DNA from: Novosphingobium lentum NBRC 107847
GTDB lineage: Bacteria; Pseudomonadota; Alphaproteobacteria; Sphingomonadales; Sphingomonadaceae
Length of the DNA: 64,000 nt
Direction: 5' to 3'
NCBI RefSeq assembly: GCF_001590965.1
Contig: NZ_BCTW01000009.1
Coordinates: 1-64,000 of the forward strand
Under the pieces are notes generated by a model, which was not told where the DNA came from, did no database searches, and was given only the letters and a program-made list of their open reading frames with translations. The position numbers and the translations under genes are program-made. This document shows, one piece after another, positions 2-5,449 of the stretch (positions are counted from its first letter, which is position 1; each line of letters opens with the position of its first letter).

Positions 2-106
2 GCCATGGGATACCGCGAGCGTGCACTTGCCCTATGGGGTCGCCGTGCGTCGTTTTGGCGATGGGAAAAGGTTGCGTTCAATCCGGACGAACTAGCGGCG
101 CGCTGA
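2..106 (+). CDS. C-terminal end of an unidentified protein (5' part outside window)
   Basis: An open frame enters from the left edge and ends at a TGA at 104-106, giving about 34 residues rich in Arg and Trp (ends ...FNPDELAAR). The composition looks coding rather than random, and the frame stops just where the oppositely oriented membrane protein gene ends, as for two convergent genes. Too little is present to name a family. It could be chance open sequence. Confidence 0.35.
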   Translation, partial: AMGYRERALALWGRRASFWRWEKVAFNPDELAAR

Positions 107-667
107 GGTGGGGGATTTGTCGGCGGGCAGGGCCGAGGCTGACACCCGCGCCCGCCGCCGATCCAGATATGCGGCAGGGAATGGCAAAAGAGGCCAAGCC
201 AATCCGAGTGTAAAAATGACCGCGATGATCGACAGGAGGAACCAGCCAATGCCAAATCGCAGGAAATATAATGGGCCAAGGATCAACTGCGTAAAGGTGA
301 TCGGAGGCTGATTTTCTGGGACGTAGCCGGTCGCCGCAAGCGCGATCAGTCGCTGGACCTCGACATAGAGGGTGGGAAATTCGTCACTGGCGACCGTGCA
401 GACCATTTCGGAGCCTTCGGTCGTCCTGATAGTCACCGCCGTCCTGCCCCGCCGCCCGGCGATTGATCCGACGATTGCCCCGGCTGCGCCGAATGTCATT
501 GCGCCGAGCGCGGCACCCCCAAGAGAACCGGCCGGATCGGTCGCACCTCCGTCAAGGCGATCCATCGATACCGGCAGGTGCAACCTGCCACGGTATCGGA
601 TGCCTTTCTTTTGCACAGTCGCGATCCGAACTTTGTTGTGGCCCTCGATGACATGAAGTGTAAGCAT
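92..667 (-). CDS. Glycine-zipper/transmembrane protein divergent from the controller gene
   Basis: A 191-residue protein of unknown function. Residues about 1-40 form a soluble beta-like segment. Residues about 48-70 are a glycine/alanine-rich stretch of glycine-zipper type (GSLGGAALGAMTFGAAGAIV), followed by a short basic and beta-rich segment. One or two hydrophobic helices follow at about 128-168, then a basic Arg-rich tail. The start is supported by GGAGGG six bases upstream of the ATG. The gene is transcribed away from the XRE-type regulator at 820, and a 20-bp perfect palindrome (678-697) sits immediately upstream of its ribosome site. That palindrome shares its core with the one in front of the regulator, so the gene is probably controlled by it. 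Whether it is an effector of the locus, an immunity or envelope protein, or an unrelated cargo gene cannot be told from sequence. Confidence 0.65.
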   Translation of the reverse strand: MLTLHVIEGHNKVRIATVQKKGIRYRGRLHLPVSMDRLDGGATDPAGSLGGAALGAMTFGAAGAIVGSIAGRRGRTAVTIRTTEGSEMVCTVASDEFPTLYVEVQRLIALAATGYVPENQPPITFTQLILGPLYFLRFGIGWFLLSIIAVIFTLGLAWPLLPFPAAYLDRRRARVSASALPADKSPTSARR

Positions 668-677
668 TCGCCCTCCG

Positions 678-697
678 ATAGAGACTATAGTCTCTAT
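678..697. promoter_or_regulatory. 20-bp perfect palindrome, probable operator (copy 1)
   Basis: The sequence ATAGAGACTATAGTCTCTAT is a perfect 20-bp palindrome 10 bp upstream of the ATG at 667. Its core GACTATAGTC recurs at 772-781 in front of the HTH gene. GACT...AGTC half-sites are typical of the C-boxes bound by restriction-modification controller proteins. Assignment as the binding site of the product of 820-1026 is inference. Confidence 0.7.
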
Positions 698-769
698 TCA
701 TAGGCAGATAATTGCTCGAAGCGAACAGCAAAAGCGCTGACTCCCCGGCATGAGGCAAACTTCATGATG

Positions 770-783
770 GGGACTATAGTCCC
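770..783. promoter_or_regulatory. 14-bp palindrome, probable operator (copy 2)
   Basis: GGGACTATAGTCCC is a perfect palindrome with the same GACTATAGTC core as copy 1, centred 89 bp from it and 36 bp upstream of the ATG at 820. The position suggests autoregulation of the HTH gene. No clear Shine-Dalgarno precedes that ATG, so a leaderless or weakly translated transcript, as known for several controller genes, is possible. Confidence 0.7.
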
Positions 784-819
784 TCGTCGATTGAGTCCGG
801 CGCGGGTTCATGCTCTCCA

Positions 820-1026
820 ATGGATTGGAATCAGATCGTTGGTGATAACGTGCGGAGGTTGCGGGGTAAGCGCGGCCTTACCCAAGAGCAGCTTGCCCAT
901 GACGCCGAGATTGATGTGACCTACCTTCGGGGGATAGAAAGCCGCCGTCGCAACCCGTCCGTTGCAGTGATCGGAAAAATTGCTGCCGCCCTCGGTGCTC
1001 ATCCGCGCGATCTCTTTGAAAAATAA
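820..1026 (+). CDS. Controller-type XRE helix-turn-helix regulator
   Basis: A 68-residue protein consisting of one HTH_XRE/Cro-C1 domain. Recognisable are the helix 2-turn-helix 3 region (GLTQEQLAHDAEIDVTYLRG), the IESRRRNPSV loop and the terminal helix IGKIAAALG. Size and pattern match the controller (C) proteins of type II restriction-modification systems, which bind GACT/AGTC palindromes and time expression of the restriction side. Two such palindromes lie just upstream (678-697 and 770-783), one facing each divergent gene. The gene begins the block that carries a GHKL ATPase, a methyltransferase-like protein and a Dcm-type methylase, which fits that role. The exact targets are inferred. 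A generic Xre repressor of a mobile element is the alternative. Confidence 0.8.
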   Translation: MDWNQIVGDNVRRLRGKRGLTQEQLAHDAEIDVTYLRGIESRRRNPSVAVIGKIAAALGAHPRDLFEK

Positions 1027-1229
1027 TTGTATTTTATGCGAATTTTGCATGTTCAGCTCGATTAAAGACTTATCGAGGCCGTGCGTTCTCGCTGACGATC
1101 GAAATAGACCTCGCCTAGTGCTGCAAAACTTTCATTTTTGACGTTCTCCTTCATATATTTGCAGCGCGACCTTGTCGTCGCACCTTGTCAGTCGCAAGGC
1201 GTTGAGGATAGATAGCGGGAGGGGGAATC

Positions 1230-1748
1230 GTGTCCGCATTCTATAATTTCATTTCAGCGCTCGACTGGCGCCAAATCCTTTTTGGCGGCGCCATCGGAGC
1301 GCTGACGCTTGGATTTCGAACAGTGATCCAAGCGCCGATTAAGGCGCTTACACAGCATGCACTTGCGATCCGATACTTAGGCTGGCTATCTCCTCAGGAG
1401 CCTTTTAGCGGCCGGTGGGAAGTTGCCTGGCACGTTGACAGTAGCCGTTTTCCAAATATTAATATCGATACGGTCCGTATCCATTGTTTGTTTGGAAGTG
1501 TGACATTCACGACATCCACCAAACTACGTGACGGCACACCGGAAACATGCGTCTTTGTGGGTAAACTTATCGACCGAACGTTAACCGGTCGTTGGTACGA
1601 TCCTAAGGACCAGGAGCGCGGCTACTATGGCGTTTTTCAGGTCCGGCTTCATGGCGGGCTCCGAGAAGGCCAGGGCGCGTGGTCGGGATGGACGAGCGAG
1701 GGAACTGTGCAATCCGATTCCATGACGTTGCGCAAAATCGAAGGGTAA
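1230..1748 (+). CDS. Membrane-anchored beta-rich protein in the defence locus
   Basis: A 172-residue protein starting with GTG behind GGGAGGGGG. An N-terminal hydrophobic segment (about residues 14-32) is followed by a domain made almost entirely of predicted beta-strands. Repeated Trp/Gly positions are seen (GRWEVAW, LTGRWYDP, GYYGVFQVRL, GAWSGW). This plan, a short membrane anchor plus a small beta-barrel-like domain, resembles in outline membrane effectors such as Cap15 of CBASS, but no family is recognised and the resemblance is architectural only. It ends 11 bp before the GHKL ATPase start and probably shares its transcript. AT-richer composition matches the rest of the block. It could act as a membrane-active effector or an anchor for the ATPase. 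Confidence 0.7.
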   Translation: MSAFYNFISALDWRQILFGGAIGALTLGFRTVIQAPIKALTQHALAIRYLGWLSPQEPFSGRWEVAWHVDSSRFPNINIDTVRIHCLFGSVTFTTSTKLRDGTPETCVFVGKLIDRTLTGRWYDPKDQERGYYGVFQVRLHGGLREGQGAWSGWTSEGTVQSDSMTLRKIEG

Positions 1749-1759
1749 GGACTACTAAT

Positions 1760-3127
1760 ATGACCGAGCCTATCGCTTATGCGGACGCGAATGCCAGTCG
1801 AGCATTTTTTGTGCAGATGCTGACCCGAGACATTACGCTCGAAGATTGCGTACTCGACCTGCTCGACAATAGCGTGGACGGCGCATGGCGATCCATTGGG
1901 CATATCGCGCCAACCCTGGATGATGGTGCTGATCTCAGTCCCTTCTGCATCGATATTCGAGCCGATGAGGGCGGCTTTTGGATGAGCGATAATTGTGGTG
2001 GAATGGACCTGCAACGAGCTGAGAACCATGCCTTCACATTCGGTCGAAAGGATGATGACGACGAAGACCGTACCGGAGATTACCGTATCGGTGTTTATGG
2101 TATCGGAATGAAGAGAGCCATCTTCAAGCTTGGGTGGAAGGTTAAAATAAACAGCACTTACTGCGATAACGGAATTGCAAAAGCTTTCTTCGTTCCAATC
2201 GATGTTAGGGCTTGGATGGCCCAAGCTGATACGGACTGGAAATTTGAAATATTCAACGCCGAACCTGCGAAATCGCAGGGGGTGGCGATCGAAGTGACGG
2301 ATCTTACGCGCGGGACAAAGAGCGCCTTCGGAAATCCCTCGTTCCAGCAGAACCTGCGGCGTGTCATCGCTAGGGACTACGCGCTTCACCTACACCGTGG
2401 TCTTACGATTGTCCTGAACGGTGTGGCAGTCGATGCTTCTCTAATAACGCTGCTCGAAAGCGCTGAGTTCGCCCCTCTCCGGAAGAGTTGGGACGTCGCT
2501 GCCGAAGGTGGATCGGTGCACATCGAGATACTTGCCGGCGCCTCTGCTGCTCCACCGGATGACGAGGCTCCCGACGAGGACGACCGGGGAGAAGAGCGCT
2601 ACGGGTGGTATGTCGCTTGCAATGGGCGGATCGTTCTTGCCGGAGATAAGTCCACGACCTCAATTTGGGGGCTCGAAGGGTTTCCGATTTGGCACCGGCA
2701 ATATCGAGGTTTCATAGGTTTGATTCTGTTTACCTCGGATGAAACTGAACTACTCCCCCTTACTACCACAAAGCGGAGTGTCGATCTATCTTCTGAGGTG
2801 TTCCGCAGCGCTCGGCCAACCATGCGTGAGGTAACGCGTGCGTGGATCGACTACACCGGAGCAAGGAAGCAGGCTCGTGAAGTGGCGAAGGTTGCTGAGC
2901 AAGCTGCAAAGTCTGTCTCGCTTTTTTCAATCGCACAGAATCCGGTAATCGTCACGCCGACACTTCCGGCAAAGCCGAAGATAAAGACTAGCACAATCCA
3001 ATATTCAATGGCGGTGACTAGGATACGTGCCTTGGCTACTGAATTTGGAAATGTAAACCTCTCTGCGAGAGAGGTTGGAATGCGGTCATTCGATTATGCT
3101 TATGATGACATGGTTGGAGAGGAGTAG
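1760..3127 (+). CDS. GHKL-type ATPase (MORC/MutL/Hsp90-like fold)
   Basis: A 455-residue protein. The ATG at 1760 is chosen because an upstream in-frame start would overlap the previous gene by about 70 bp. The N-terminal GHKL ATP-binding fold is visible. The N-box is at about residues 22-38 (LDLLDNSVDGA, with the Mg-ligand-type Asn), motif G1 is SDNCGGMD (about 77-84), and motif G2 is GVYGIGMKRA (about 112-121). The middle contains a transducer-like segment with an acidic linker (PDEDDRGEE). The C-terminus is unassigned. Prokaryotic MORC-like GHKL ATPases are known from restriction-modification and other defence operons, where ATP-driven clamp closure is thought to act on DNA. Its stop overlaps the GTG start of the next gene (TAGTG), so the two are translationally coupled and likely form one machine. 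No nuclease motif was seen. Confidence 0.85.
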   Translation: MTEPIAYADANASRAFFVQMLTRDITLEDCVLDLLDNSVDGAWRSIGHIAPTLDDGADLSPFCIDIRADEGGFWMSDNCGGMDLQRAENHAFTFGRKDDDDEDRTGDYRIGVYGIGMKRAIFKLGWKVKINSTYCDNGIAKAFFVPIDVRAWMAQADTDWKFEIFNAEPAKSQGVAIEVTDLTRGTKSAFGNPSFQQNLRRVIARDYALHLHRGLTIVLNGVAVDASLITLLESAEFAPLRKSWDVAAEGGSVHIEILAGASAAPPDDEAPDEDDRGEERYGWYVACNGRIVLAGDKSTTSIWGLEGFPIWHRQYRGFIGLILFTSDETELLPLTTTKRSVDLSSEVFRSARPTMREVTRAWIDYTGARKQAREVAKVAEQAAKSVSLFSIAQNPVIVTPTLPAKPKIKTSTIQYSMAVTRIRALATEFGNVNLSAREVGMRSFDYAYDDMVGEE

Positions 3128-4077
3128 TGCCCTCATTCGACGCTGTAAATTATAGCTTGAGGCCAAATAAAACTATTCAGCGCGCGATAGTTTTTGAAGG
3201 ACTTCGGTCATTGTCATATGCGCTCGATTGGTCGAGCGCTGCATACATCGGATTTGGGTCAATTTGGTTCGCTGATTTTGTGATGGCTCATAAGCGATTA
3301 GGTATCGAGCGAATGATATCTATTGAATCCGACCAAATCGGTTTCCGACGCGCTGAATACAATAGGCCATTTCGTACAGTCACCGTCCTGAATGGACTAT
3401 CTTATGAAATTATACCCGAGTTTTATGACGATCCCGTGATGATGTCTCAGCCTTGGGTTATATGGTTAGATTACGACTCCGAGCTTTCGGATGATGCGAC
3501 GCACGAGCTACGCGGGGTCGTCGAGCGAGCACCTGCGAACAGCGCTTTAATGGTTACAGTCAATGCCTCAGGGAAAAAATACGGTGCCGATCCATCGCAA
3601 AAGCGCGAGCGTTTACGCGTCCTGCTTGGCGATGTCGTTCCTGATGCGCTTACTCGGGAACAATTGCGGGACCCTGACGCATTTGCGCTGACGATGGCAG
3701 ACCTTCTTCAGCAATTTTTACAGGCAACGGCAGAAAACTGTGCACGACCGGGCGGTTTTGTTCCGGCTTTTAGAGCGGCTTACAGGGATAAGGCTTCCAT
3801 GATTACCGTAGGCGGGATTCTGCCAACGATAGAGAGACGAGACGCCGTATCCACGTTGGTTACCGAAGATCGCTGGGAAGGCTTTTCCGATCTCGCGATC
3901 ATCGCACCTCATTTGACATTAAAAGAACTCGCTGTTCTACAGGCGCAGATGCCCCGATCTGAAGTTATGGATCGCACTGTAGTGCAAGAACTTGGCTTTG
4001 ACCTGGGCGAGGATCAAATTGAGATATTCAGACGCTATTATCGGCATTATCCCGCTTTCGCGCAGCTGAGCGCCTAA
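3127..4077 (+). CDS. Methyltransferase-fold-like protein coupled to the GHKL ATPase
   Basis: A 316-residue protein starting with GTG that overlaps the ATPase stop codon, preceded by GGAGAGGAG. Residues about 38-66 (YIGFGSIWFADF, then IERMISIES) resemble strand 1/motif I and the acidic end of strand 2 of Rossmann-fold SAM-dependent methyltransferases. VIWLDYDSEL at about 114 resembles motif IV. The glycine motif is not canonical, so SAM binding is uncertain. Similar proteins are, to my recollection, annotated as putative O-methyltransferases beside ATPases in defence islands. It may be the modification, sensing or nucleic-acid-recognition subunit of the system. It ends 17 bp from the convergent methylase gene. 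Function is inferred. Confidence 0.65.
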   Translation: MPSFDAVNYSLRPNKTIQRAIVFEGLRSLSYALDWSSAAYIGFGSIWFADFVMAHKRLGIERMISIESDQIGFRRAEYNRPFRTVTVLNGLSYEIIPEFYDDPVMMSQPWVIWLDYDSELSDDATHELRGVVERAPANSALMVTVNASGKKYGADPSQKRERLRVLLGDVVPDALTREQLRDPDAFALTMADLLQQFLQATAENCARPGGFVPAFRAAYRDKASMITVGGILPTIERRDAVSTLVTEDRWEGFSDLAIIAPHLTLKELAVLQAQMPRSEVMDRTVVQELGFDLGEDQIEIFRRYYRHYPAFAQLSA

Positions 4078-4094
4078 GCCTACCGACTATCATA

Positions 4095-5243
4095 TTATTC
4101 CACCGCCTGATGTAGATCCTCGCCTTCGATCATTTGATCATGTTTCGGAAAATTTCCGACTTTCAAACGGATCGCTTCAAAAACAGCCTTGGCGATAATG
4201 GGCGAGACGCTGTTTCCGATCATTCTGAAGCTGTGCCACACAGTGGGATGGAAAATATGAGTGTCGGGGAAACCCTGCAGCCTTGCGGCCTCGCGAACGG
4301 TAATGACACGGTTTTCTGAAGGATGGATCGGCCTGACCGATTGGTACGATCCGCGATCGGCACCAGTTCCGGCCCGAAGCGTGGGGCATTGCCCCTCCCA
4401 TGCCAATCGGGGATGCCGACCAATCTTATCCATACTTCCCGGCTTAACGCGAGAGAAGCGCTCGACTACGCTTTCAGTGTGTGAGGTGAACCTGTGACCG
4501 GTAAACTGCCCGTTGCTAGATCGAAGCTGGCGCGCATAGCTGGACATAGAGCCTCGCTGCATAATCTTCCAGTGATCGAAACCGTCTTGGTCGTTGAGTT
4601 TGCGAGCGCCCTGCAAATCTAGAATTGCGTCCCGAACCGTCGCCGCTGGTCGCCTGAAAATATCCATGTCTTCAGGTGCAAACGGATCACACCGCTCCCG
4701 GTCAATCCCGATAATGAAAATGCGGGGCCTCTTGGTCGGCGCACCGAATTGGGATGCATCCCATACTTGCGGACCGATCACATCATATGACCCGGCCACA
4801 ACGGCGATCGCGTCATTCAGCTCGGATCGAGCGTCTTCATATGCAAGACCCAGGACGTTCTCCATTACGAAAAACGCAGGCTTCAGTTCACTTACCAGAC
4901 GGAAGAAATGTCCTAGCAACGTTCGACGGACGTCCGTCGAATCACGGCGTCCGATGCTGCTAAAGCCTTGGCAGGGGGGGCCGCCGAAGACGCCGTCGAT
5001 TGGAGCGCCCACCGATTTTGCAACCTGCTGGCCTGACAGTTGGGCAATGTCTACGAGGTGGAGTTGCGTGTTCTGAAAGTTGCGAGTGTACGACGATGTG
5101 AGAATTGGGTCGATGTCGTAGGCAGCGGCTACCTTGAAGCCCGCCTGATGGGCGCCAAGTGAAAATCCACCGCTACCGCAAAAAAGATCGACCAGCTTCA
5201 TCGCATTCGTACCCACTCCCTCTACGGACGCCTTGCCGAACAT
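4095..5243 (-). CDS. DNA (cytosine-5-)-methyltransferase, Dcm/type II family
   Basis: A 382-residue C5-cytosine methylase that transfers a methyl group from SAM to cytosine in a short DNA site. The full motif series is present: motif I DLFCGSGGFSLG, motif IV GGPPCQGFS with the catalytic Cys, motif VI MENV, motif VIII QFGAPTKRPRIFIIG, motif IX around ITVREAARLQGFP, and motif X GNSVSPIIAKA. The start given has an AGGAGG 14 bases upstream. The internal ATG at 5201 (MKLVDLF) is the family-typical start and equally possible. The target specificity cannot be read from sequence. It converges on the ATPase/methyltransferase-like pair and has its own promoter (5280-5308), so protective methylation can be expressed independently of the controller-driven genes. 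Confidence 0.92.
   Translation of the reverse strand: MFGKASVEGVGTNAMKLVDLFCGSGGFSLGAHQAGFKVAAAYDIDPILTSSYTRNFQNTQLHLVDIAQLSGQQVAKSVGAPIDGVFGGPPCQGFSSIGRRDSTDVRRTLLGHFFRLVSELKPAFFVMENVLGLAYEDARSELNDAIAVVAGSYDVIGPQVWDASQFGAPTKRPRIFIIGIDRERCDPFAPEDMDIFRRPAATVRDAILDLQGARKLNDQDGFDHWKIMQRGSMSSYARQLRSSNGQFTGHRFTSHTESVVERFSRVKPGSMDKIGRHPRLAWEGQCPTLRAGTGADRGSYQSVRPIHPSENRVITVREAARLQGFPDTHIFHPTVWHSFRMIGNSVSPIIAKAVFEAIRLKVGNFPKHDQMIEGEDLHQAVE

Positions 5244-5373: not shown

Positions 5374-5449
<76 letters not shown>

Follow-up and report, generated by a model that had tools for sequence, protein, structure and literature searches.

Two perfect palindromes that share the core GACTATAGTC lie between a gene for a 68-residue helix-turn-helix (HTH) protein (positions 820 to 1026, plus strand) and a divergent gene for a 191-residue membrane protein (92 to 667, minus strand) in the 64-kb stretch of DNA analysed here, which we refer to as the window. 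We propose, with a probability of about two in three, that this arrangement constitutes a two-promoter regulon, in which a regulator of the controller (C) protein type would use both palindromes as dimer sites, controlling (most likely activating) its own gene from the palindrome at 770 to 783 and repressing the membrane-protein gene from that at 678 to 697. This proposal is built on sequence comparison and on analogy with known systems, which together suggest that the regulator's own gene has a conserved operator and that the divergent gene has a second, isolated one that is particular to this genome. Because one likely target site precedes each divergent gene, the regulator probably switches both.

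The palindrome on the left spans 20 bp (678 to 697) and reads ATAGAGACTATAGTCTCTAT, and the palindrome on the HTH side spans 14 bp (770 to 783) and reads GGGACTATAGTCCC. On the outer side, the left palindrome is 10 bp from the ATG of the left gene (667, minus strand) and the HTH-side palindrome is 36 bp from that of the HTH gene (820); their centres are 89 bp, or 8.48 helical turns, apart. An earlier note on this DNA had described two perfect palindromes with a common core, 10 and 37 bp from the two genes and 89 bp from one another; the palindromes, the first distance and the separation (taken centre to centre) are borne out by the sequence, and only the 37 bp must be corrected. In the whole genome (4,407,848 bases), the exact core is found at these two sites and nowhere else, and the same two sites are the only places within two mismatches of GGGACTATAGTCCC. 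When up to one mismatch to the core is allowed, the window holds two occurrences, whereas 0.17 are expected. Perfect palindromes of at least 14 bp number 16 in the window, compared with a null mean of 12.5, and those of 20 bp number two, compared with 0.17; the other one of that length, TTCGACGGACGTCCGTCGAA, resides at 4922 to 4941 inside a C5-methyltransferase gene. Long palindromes as such are therefore not rare, and the signal lies in the sharing of a core within one intergenic region and in the conservation of the HTH-side site rather than in palindromy. A wider regulon was rejected, as three mismatches yield 32 further places in the genome and a reversed control pattern yields 78. In the literature, the letters of the core were met only in papers with unrelated titles.

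The 68-residue protein matches HTH_3 (1.5e-13) and the PADLOC Control_protein family (7.9e-16), and among PDB sequences its best match is QseC (9xz9, 1.1e-9), followed by C.AhdI (9.9e-9). Its structural model, computed from an alignment of 31 sequences with a pLDDT of 96.6, is a bare five-helix domain, for which the top solved fold is C.AhdI (Z 14.1, rmsd 1.3, 66 aligned residues, 39% identity), with SinR (Z 13.6) and ClgR (Z 13.3) tied within 1 of it. The protein is a small, single-domain XRE HTH with the C-protein fold, but this fold is common to XRE regulators of the SinR type and does not by itself mark a C protein. On the combined strength of its family matches and its predicted structure, the 68-residue HTH is of the C protein type.

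Conservation of the HTH-side site was evaluated in 110 HTH loci, the window included, which comprise 30 of the 46 matches of one search and the best 80 of 381 matches of another. Of these loci, 35 share the window protein's helix motif, [VIL]D[LVI][TR]Y. Seven of them, two being apparent duplicate records, have GGAACTATAGTTCC in or next to the locus and were set apart from the site analysis; the pairs L006/L069 and L009/L082 are apparently duplicate records. In 27 of the remaining 28 loci, a site matches GGGACTATAGTCCC at 10 to 14 of its 14 positions with its centre 42 to 43 bp from the ATG. Of the non-redundant relatives, 22 of 23 have such a site, with the consensus AATAGGGACTATARTCCCTA, 42 to 43 bp upstream of the HTH ATG, and the sole miss (L044, 68% identical) has no recognizable site; the centre of the window's own site is 43 bp from its ATG. 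The C-box assignment made in the earlier note is thereby upheld, in that this conserved site identifies the palindrome as a C-box-type operator of the family of the 68-residue protein. The 2-bp core spacing that had seemed odd is no departure at all, because GAC-TATA-GTC is the optimal core of C.Esp1396I according to an excerpt of PMC3758141.

A logo was built from 22 relatives after exclusion of the window, of L044 for want of a site and of four near-copies of L048 (L049, L051, L052 and L054). Their consensus, AATAGGGACTATARTCCCTAGAGACTATANGCCCGAT, consists of a strong palindrome and, 16 bp further along, a diverged version of it, which is the layout of an OL-OR pair. Upstream of the site the logo displays nothing conserved, including no -35/-10 pair. 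Scored with a matrix of the relatives' OR, this second copy exceeds 10 in 15 of the 22 relatives and falls below 5 in seven, whereas in the window the corresponding stretch (784 to 803, plus strand) scores -3.7, a value attained by 65 of 5000 shuffles of the same 20 bases, and appears to be a degenerate OR remnant. Among the seven nearest relatives (L041 to L047), the OR is degenerate in five and strong in L045, and L044 is without a site. The window combines a GAC/GTC half-site operator at the family's fixed distance from the regulator's own gene with a degenerate second site in place of the adjacent OL-OR arrangement, and it also lacks the outer TG...CA contacts of the classical C-box, its flanks being GGG/CCC and GAG/CTC.

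The classical box (GACTnATAGTC, up to one mismatch) was found in 12 of 75 other loci, centred 42.5 to 44.5 bp from the ATG in nine of the 12. Operator types cluster on the protein tree, requiring 19 changes as compared with 53.0 in shuffles, and the window's type requires five as compared with 20.9, which makes it clustered and yet not one clade; the tree behind these counts has 95 rows, 36 of them with an unclassed operator, and it contains only a small number of columns, many unresolved forks and some near-copies. The window's operator class, with its fixed geometry, is found across several families of Alphaproteobacteria, and the operator types together with the recognition-helix sequences form a ready test set for specificity. 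C-box motifs were reportedly sorted into classes by Sorokin et al. in 2009, and the window motif may be described there.

A symmetric site matrix derived from the relatives, with the window left out of training, locates both palindromes. The left site (677 to 698) scores 21.9 and the HTH-side site (766 to 787) scores 20.0, compared with -3.7 for the third-best place in the window and maxima of -2.7 to 0.5 in five shuffles; the lowest training score, 24.0, exceeds both of them (the training scores are not cross-validated). The left site carries the family flanks AATAG...CTA, and its half-site GAGACTA is that of the relatives' OR (TAGAGACTATA). It adjoins the Shine-Dalgarno-like GGAGG of the left gene (672 to 676, minus strand) and covers a TATAGT that could serve as a -10 element. 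Its rarity, as one of only two such sites in the genome, its matrix score and its position make it a candidate isolated operator, resembling the OM site of C.Esp1396I discussed below.

An isolated second site at a divergent gene was found in none of 27 relatives' loci (25 of L041 to L068 plus L033 and L034, scanned for up to 6 kb per side and in some cases to a contig end), so that the conservation in relatives proposed as a check in the earlier note exists for the HTH-side site but not for the left one. Six of the scanned loci (L048, L049, L051, L052, L054 and L055) have a second strong site that precedes a tandem C-like gene; these loci harbour tandem C-like gene pairs, each gene with its own operator of the GGGACTATARTCCC type. 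Two such sites 55 to 85 bp apart occur in one of 396 genomes of the order, namely that of the window. The HTH-side site therefore appears to be old, and the left site particular to the window locus as far as the searches extend.

This restricted distribution, along with a left gene that has no clear relatives, is what would be expected if the HTH-side palindrome alone were functional and the left palindrome were a chance or decaying copy. We consider this improbable given the perfect 20-bp symmetry of the left site, its family flanks and half-sites, the expectation of only 0.17 such cores in the window, and its place just upstream of the left gene's Shine-Dalgarno sequence. Conservation cannot decide the matter, since the left gene is without a clear relative. 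At a threshold of 0.001, its 191-residue product has no match among Pfam, PADLOC or NCBIfam families, and at E values up to 10 Pfam returns chance-level matches only, among which DUF2285, the family of QseM, is not present. PHROGs yields a weak match (E 0.0067) to a family of unknown function. No match to the gene was found in 147 other related genomes or on plasmids, and 384 other genomes of the class gave a single weak match (E 1.5e-4) with a stop inside.

The identical cores within one intergenic region also invite the view of a split operator, to use the term of the earlier note, on which two dimers would act jointly, by looping or bridging, on both arms. Such joint action is very unlikely. 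A separation of 89 bp (8.48 turns) puts the sites on opposite faces of a short, stiff stretch of DNA, the usual arrangement in relatives is an adjacent OL-OR pair, and the modelled regulator is a bare domain of five helices. What survives of the earlier view is a predicted operator at each divergent gene; what does not is a single C-box pulled apart, since the window retains an intact OL next to a degenerate OR and has the left site in addition to these. Because the spacing makes looping or joint occupancy unlikely, two operators describe the region better than one split operator does.

It is less credible still that the palindromes serve some other function, as a hairpin or terminator, as replication iterons or as a methyltransferase target. 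Four phage contigs (L152 to L155) hold about five copies of GACTATAGTC each in an iteron-like series within an open reading frame of approximately 350 to 380 residues, which we read as a putative replication protein. The window has two copies only and no array, the position upstream of the regulator gene is fixed across relatives, and a methylation target that occurs just twice per genome is implausible. No related regulator was found in the stretches of these phage contigs that were examined, and the 10-bp core is taken to be shared with the window by chance or convergence. A terminator was rejected, as positions 560 to 1300 contain no terminator-like site.

In the two-operator regulon that we favour, a dimer of the 68-residue protein would bind OL (770 to 783), centred 43 bp upstream of its own ATG, a position also seen in classical C genes, and most likely activate the HTH gene. 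By analogy with known C genes, the HTH transcript would be leaderless and would arise from this OL-activated promoter; no obvious Shine-Dalgarno sequence is seen before the HTH gene. Leaderless C transcripts are called common in a portion of PMC4824078, which also states for C.Csp231I that mutation of OL abolished activation and mutation of OR abolished repression. C proteins are homodimers that activate when scarce and repress when abundant. Because OR is degenerate in the window, self-repression should be weak. A dimer on 678 to 697, lying over TATAGT and beside the Shine-Dalgarno sequence, would repress the divergent gene in the manner of OM at the Esp1396I M gene. Activation and repression by one dimer would be separately measurable in such a two-site regulon.

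A plain autorepressor, in which the TATAGT of each palindrome is a -10 element and the bound dimer shuts both promoters without any activation, is a rather unlikely competitor. Each palindrome does contain TATAGT, several relatives have TATAAT at that place, and a degenerate OR would permit a one-site design like that of a simple repressor. On the other hand, no -35 element is conserved upstream of the site, and the strict 42 to 43 bp to the ATG, coupled with the lack of an obvious Shine-Dalgarno sequence for the HTH gene, fits a leaderless, OL-activated promoter. A promoter scan of positions 560 to 1300 produced no promoter-like match on either arm, its single match (1026 to 1055, minus strand) being on neither of them. 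With no conserved -35/-10 pair and no promoter match on the arms, the sequence does not settle the choice between activation and repression.

Among known designs, the closest are Esp1396I and the divergent qseC-qseM pair. In the Esp1396I system, as outlined in sections of PMC3758141, C.Esp1396I binds OL and OR beside the C/R genes and, apart from these, OM at the M gene, and the PDB title of 3ufd names OM as its highest-affinity site. Shared with the window are the C-protein fold, the GAC-TATA-GTC core, and operators at the regulator's own promoter accompanied by a separate operator at another gene. However, that other gene encodes a methyltransferase there and a divergent membrane protein in the window, the window differs in its GGG/CCC and GAG/CTC flanks and its degenerate OR, and the two proteins are 26 to 28% identical in structural alignments. 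C.AhdI, which resembles the window protein most closely in fold and second most closely among PDB sequences, binds an adjacent double C-box, and we know of no isolated C.AhdI operator at a divergent gene. In integrative elements of Mesorhizobium, QseC controls the adjacent qseM (from part of PMC8627217), and a figure legend in PMC5882170 calls the two genes divergent. QseC is the best PDB sequence match (9xz9, 1.1e-9), but QseM is an antiactivator and the window's left gene shows no such family; in addition, relatives that we take to be QseC-like carry another operator, GGAACnATnGTTCC. In C-like loci L105 to L108 and L111 to L114, a conserved divergent open reading frame of 90 residues, which we take to resemble QseM, may be a further case of a C-like regulator paired with a divergent gene.

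The neighbours of related regulators provide a broader context for the divergent arm. Of the 19 non-redundant loci of this helix group, which cover both operator types, 14 have a divergent product with a hydrophobic or signal-peptide-like character, as compared with five of 26 other C-like loci (Fisher p 5.7e-4), and a stricter rule using hydropathy alone gives ten of 19 and four of 26 (p 0.011); the choice of open reading frame was mechanical, but the idea of an envelope neighbour arose from the same loci, so the p-value is not independent and serves as a guide only. These counts leave out near-copies (80% identity) as well as loci that have no divergent neighbour (2/21 and 13/39). The misses in the helix group are L043, L047 and L061 plus L056 and L059, the last two of which look exported by eye and were still counted as misses. 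In 13 relatives' loci picked for a likely envelope-protein neighbour, a median of 34 bp separates the centre of OL from the divergent start that lies furthest upstream, a proximity by which one operator could serve both arms in many relatives. The window's OL is 109 bp away from where the left gene starts, and 20 bp separate that start from the centre of the second operator.

These observations lead us to suggest, tentatively and with more doubt than confidence, that the regulators with the operator AATAGGGACTATARTCCCTA are mainly not restriction controllers. They might instead act as the switch of a mobile cassette of two genes, the other of which would encode a small envelope protein that is exchanged rapidly and perhaps excludes phages or plasmids. 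The window would then hold a version in which the common operator has been doubled so that each arm has its own. Among the papers listed for C proteins with divergent genes, none used the term lipoprotein. C proteins are known timing devices of restriction systems, and an operator class of fixed geometry beside divergent envelope-type genes would show another use for them.

Downstream of the HTH gene, and separated from its stop by 203 bp, begins a group of genes whose first member (1230 to 1748, plus strand) encodes a 172-residue protein with an N-terminal hydrophobic helix. This protein is possibly co-regulated, although joint transcription with the HTH gene would have to extend across that gap. 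Searches of Pfam, PADLOC, NCBIfam and PHROGs assign it to no family, and its model, made without an alignment, is too poor for comparison (pLDDT 45.7). Directly behind it are genes for a MORC/paraMORC-like HATPase_c_3 ATPase (1760 to 3127, plus strand; PF13589, 9.5e-8) and a Methyltransf_35 protein (3127 to 4077, plus strand; PF20553, 1.8e-89), followed by a C5-cytosine DNA methyltransferase gene convergent with them (4095 to 5243, minus strand; PF00145, 2.1e-57) and by a tRNA-Thr predicted by ARAGORN (5374 to 5449, minus strand) that is probably an island edge. No endonuclease family was matched in the window by Pfam, PADLOC or NCBIfam.

A GHKL ATPase beside a cytosine methyltransferase corresponds to a restriction-modification module of the MORC/paraMORC type, and ATPase-methylase neighbourhoods of this kind are described in a section of PMC2292703. 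The module recurs in related stretches of 15 to 17 kb (L140 to L151, 12 of the ATPase loci from 15 other genomes), with the GHKL ATPase in 12 of 12, the C5-methyltransferase in 11 and Methyltransf_35 in nine, and in at least L140, L144 and L145 the methyltransferase gene points towards that of the ATPase, as it does in the window. A C-like gene, sought with two queries, is found at one of these 12 loci (L145, genome G132), where it has a classical box. Among the best 80 of 381 loci, four (L041, L042, L044 and L046) have a C5-methyltransferase within about 1 kb of the HTH gene. These four and the window, all of which pair a C-like gene with a C5-methyltransferase, have a tRNA-Thr or tRNA-Lys within a few kb, a closeness that suggests islands. 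For example, L044 contains a C-like gene, a tRNA-Thr (3836 to 3911) and relatives of the window's 355-residue gene and of its rarA-like gene, a name that we assume to be appropriate. The contig on which the window lies probably starts inside such an island.
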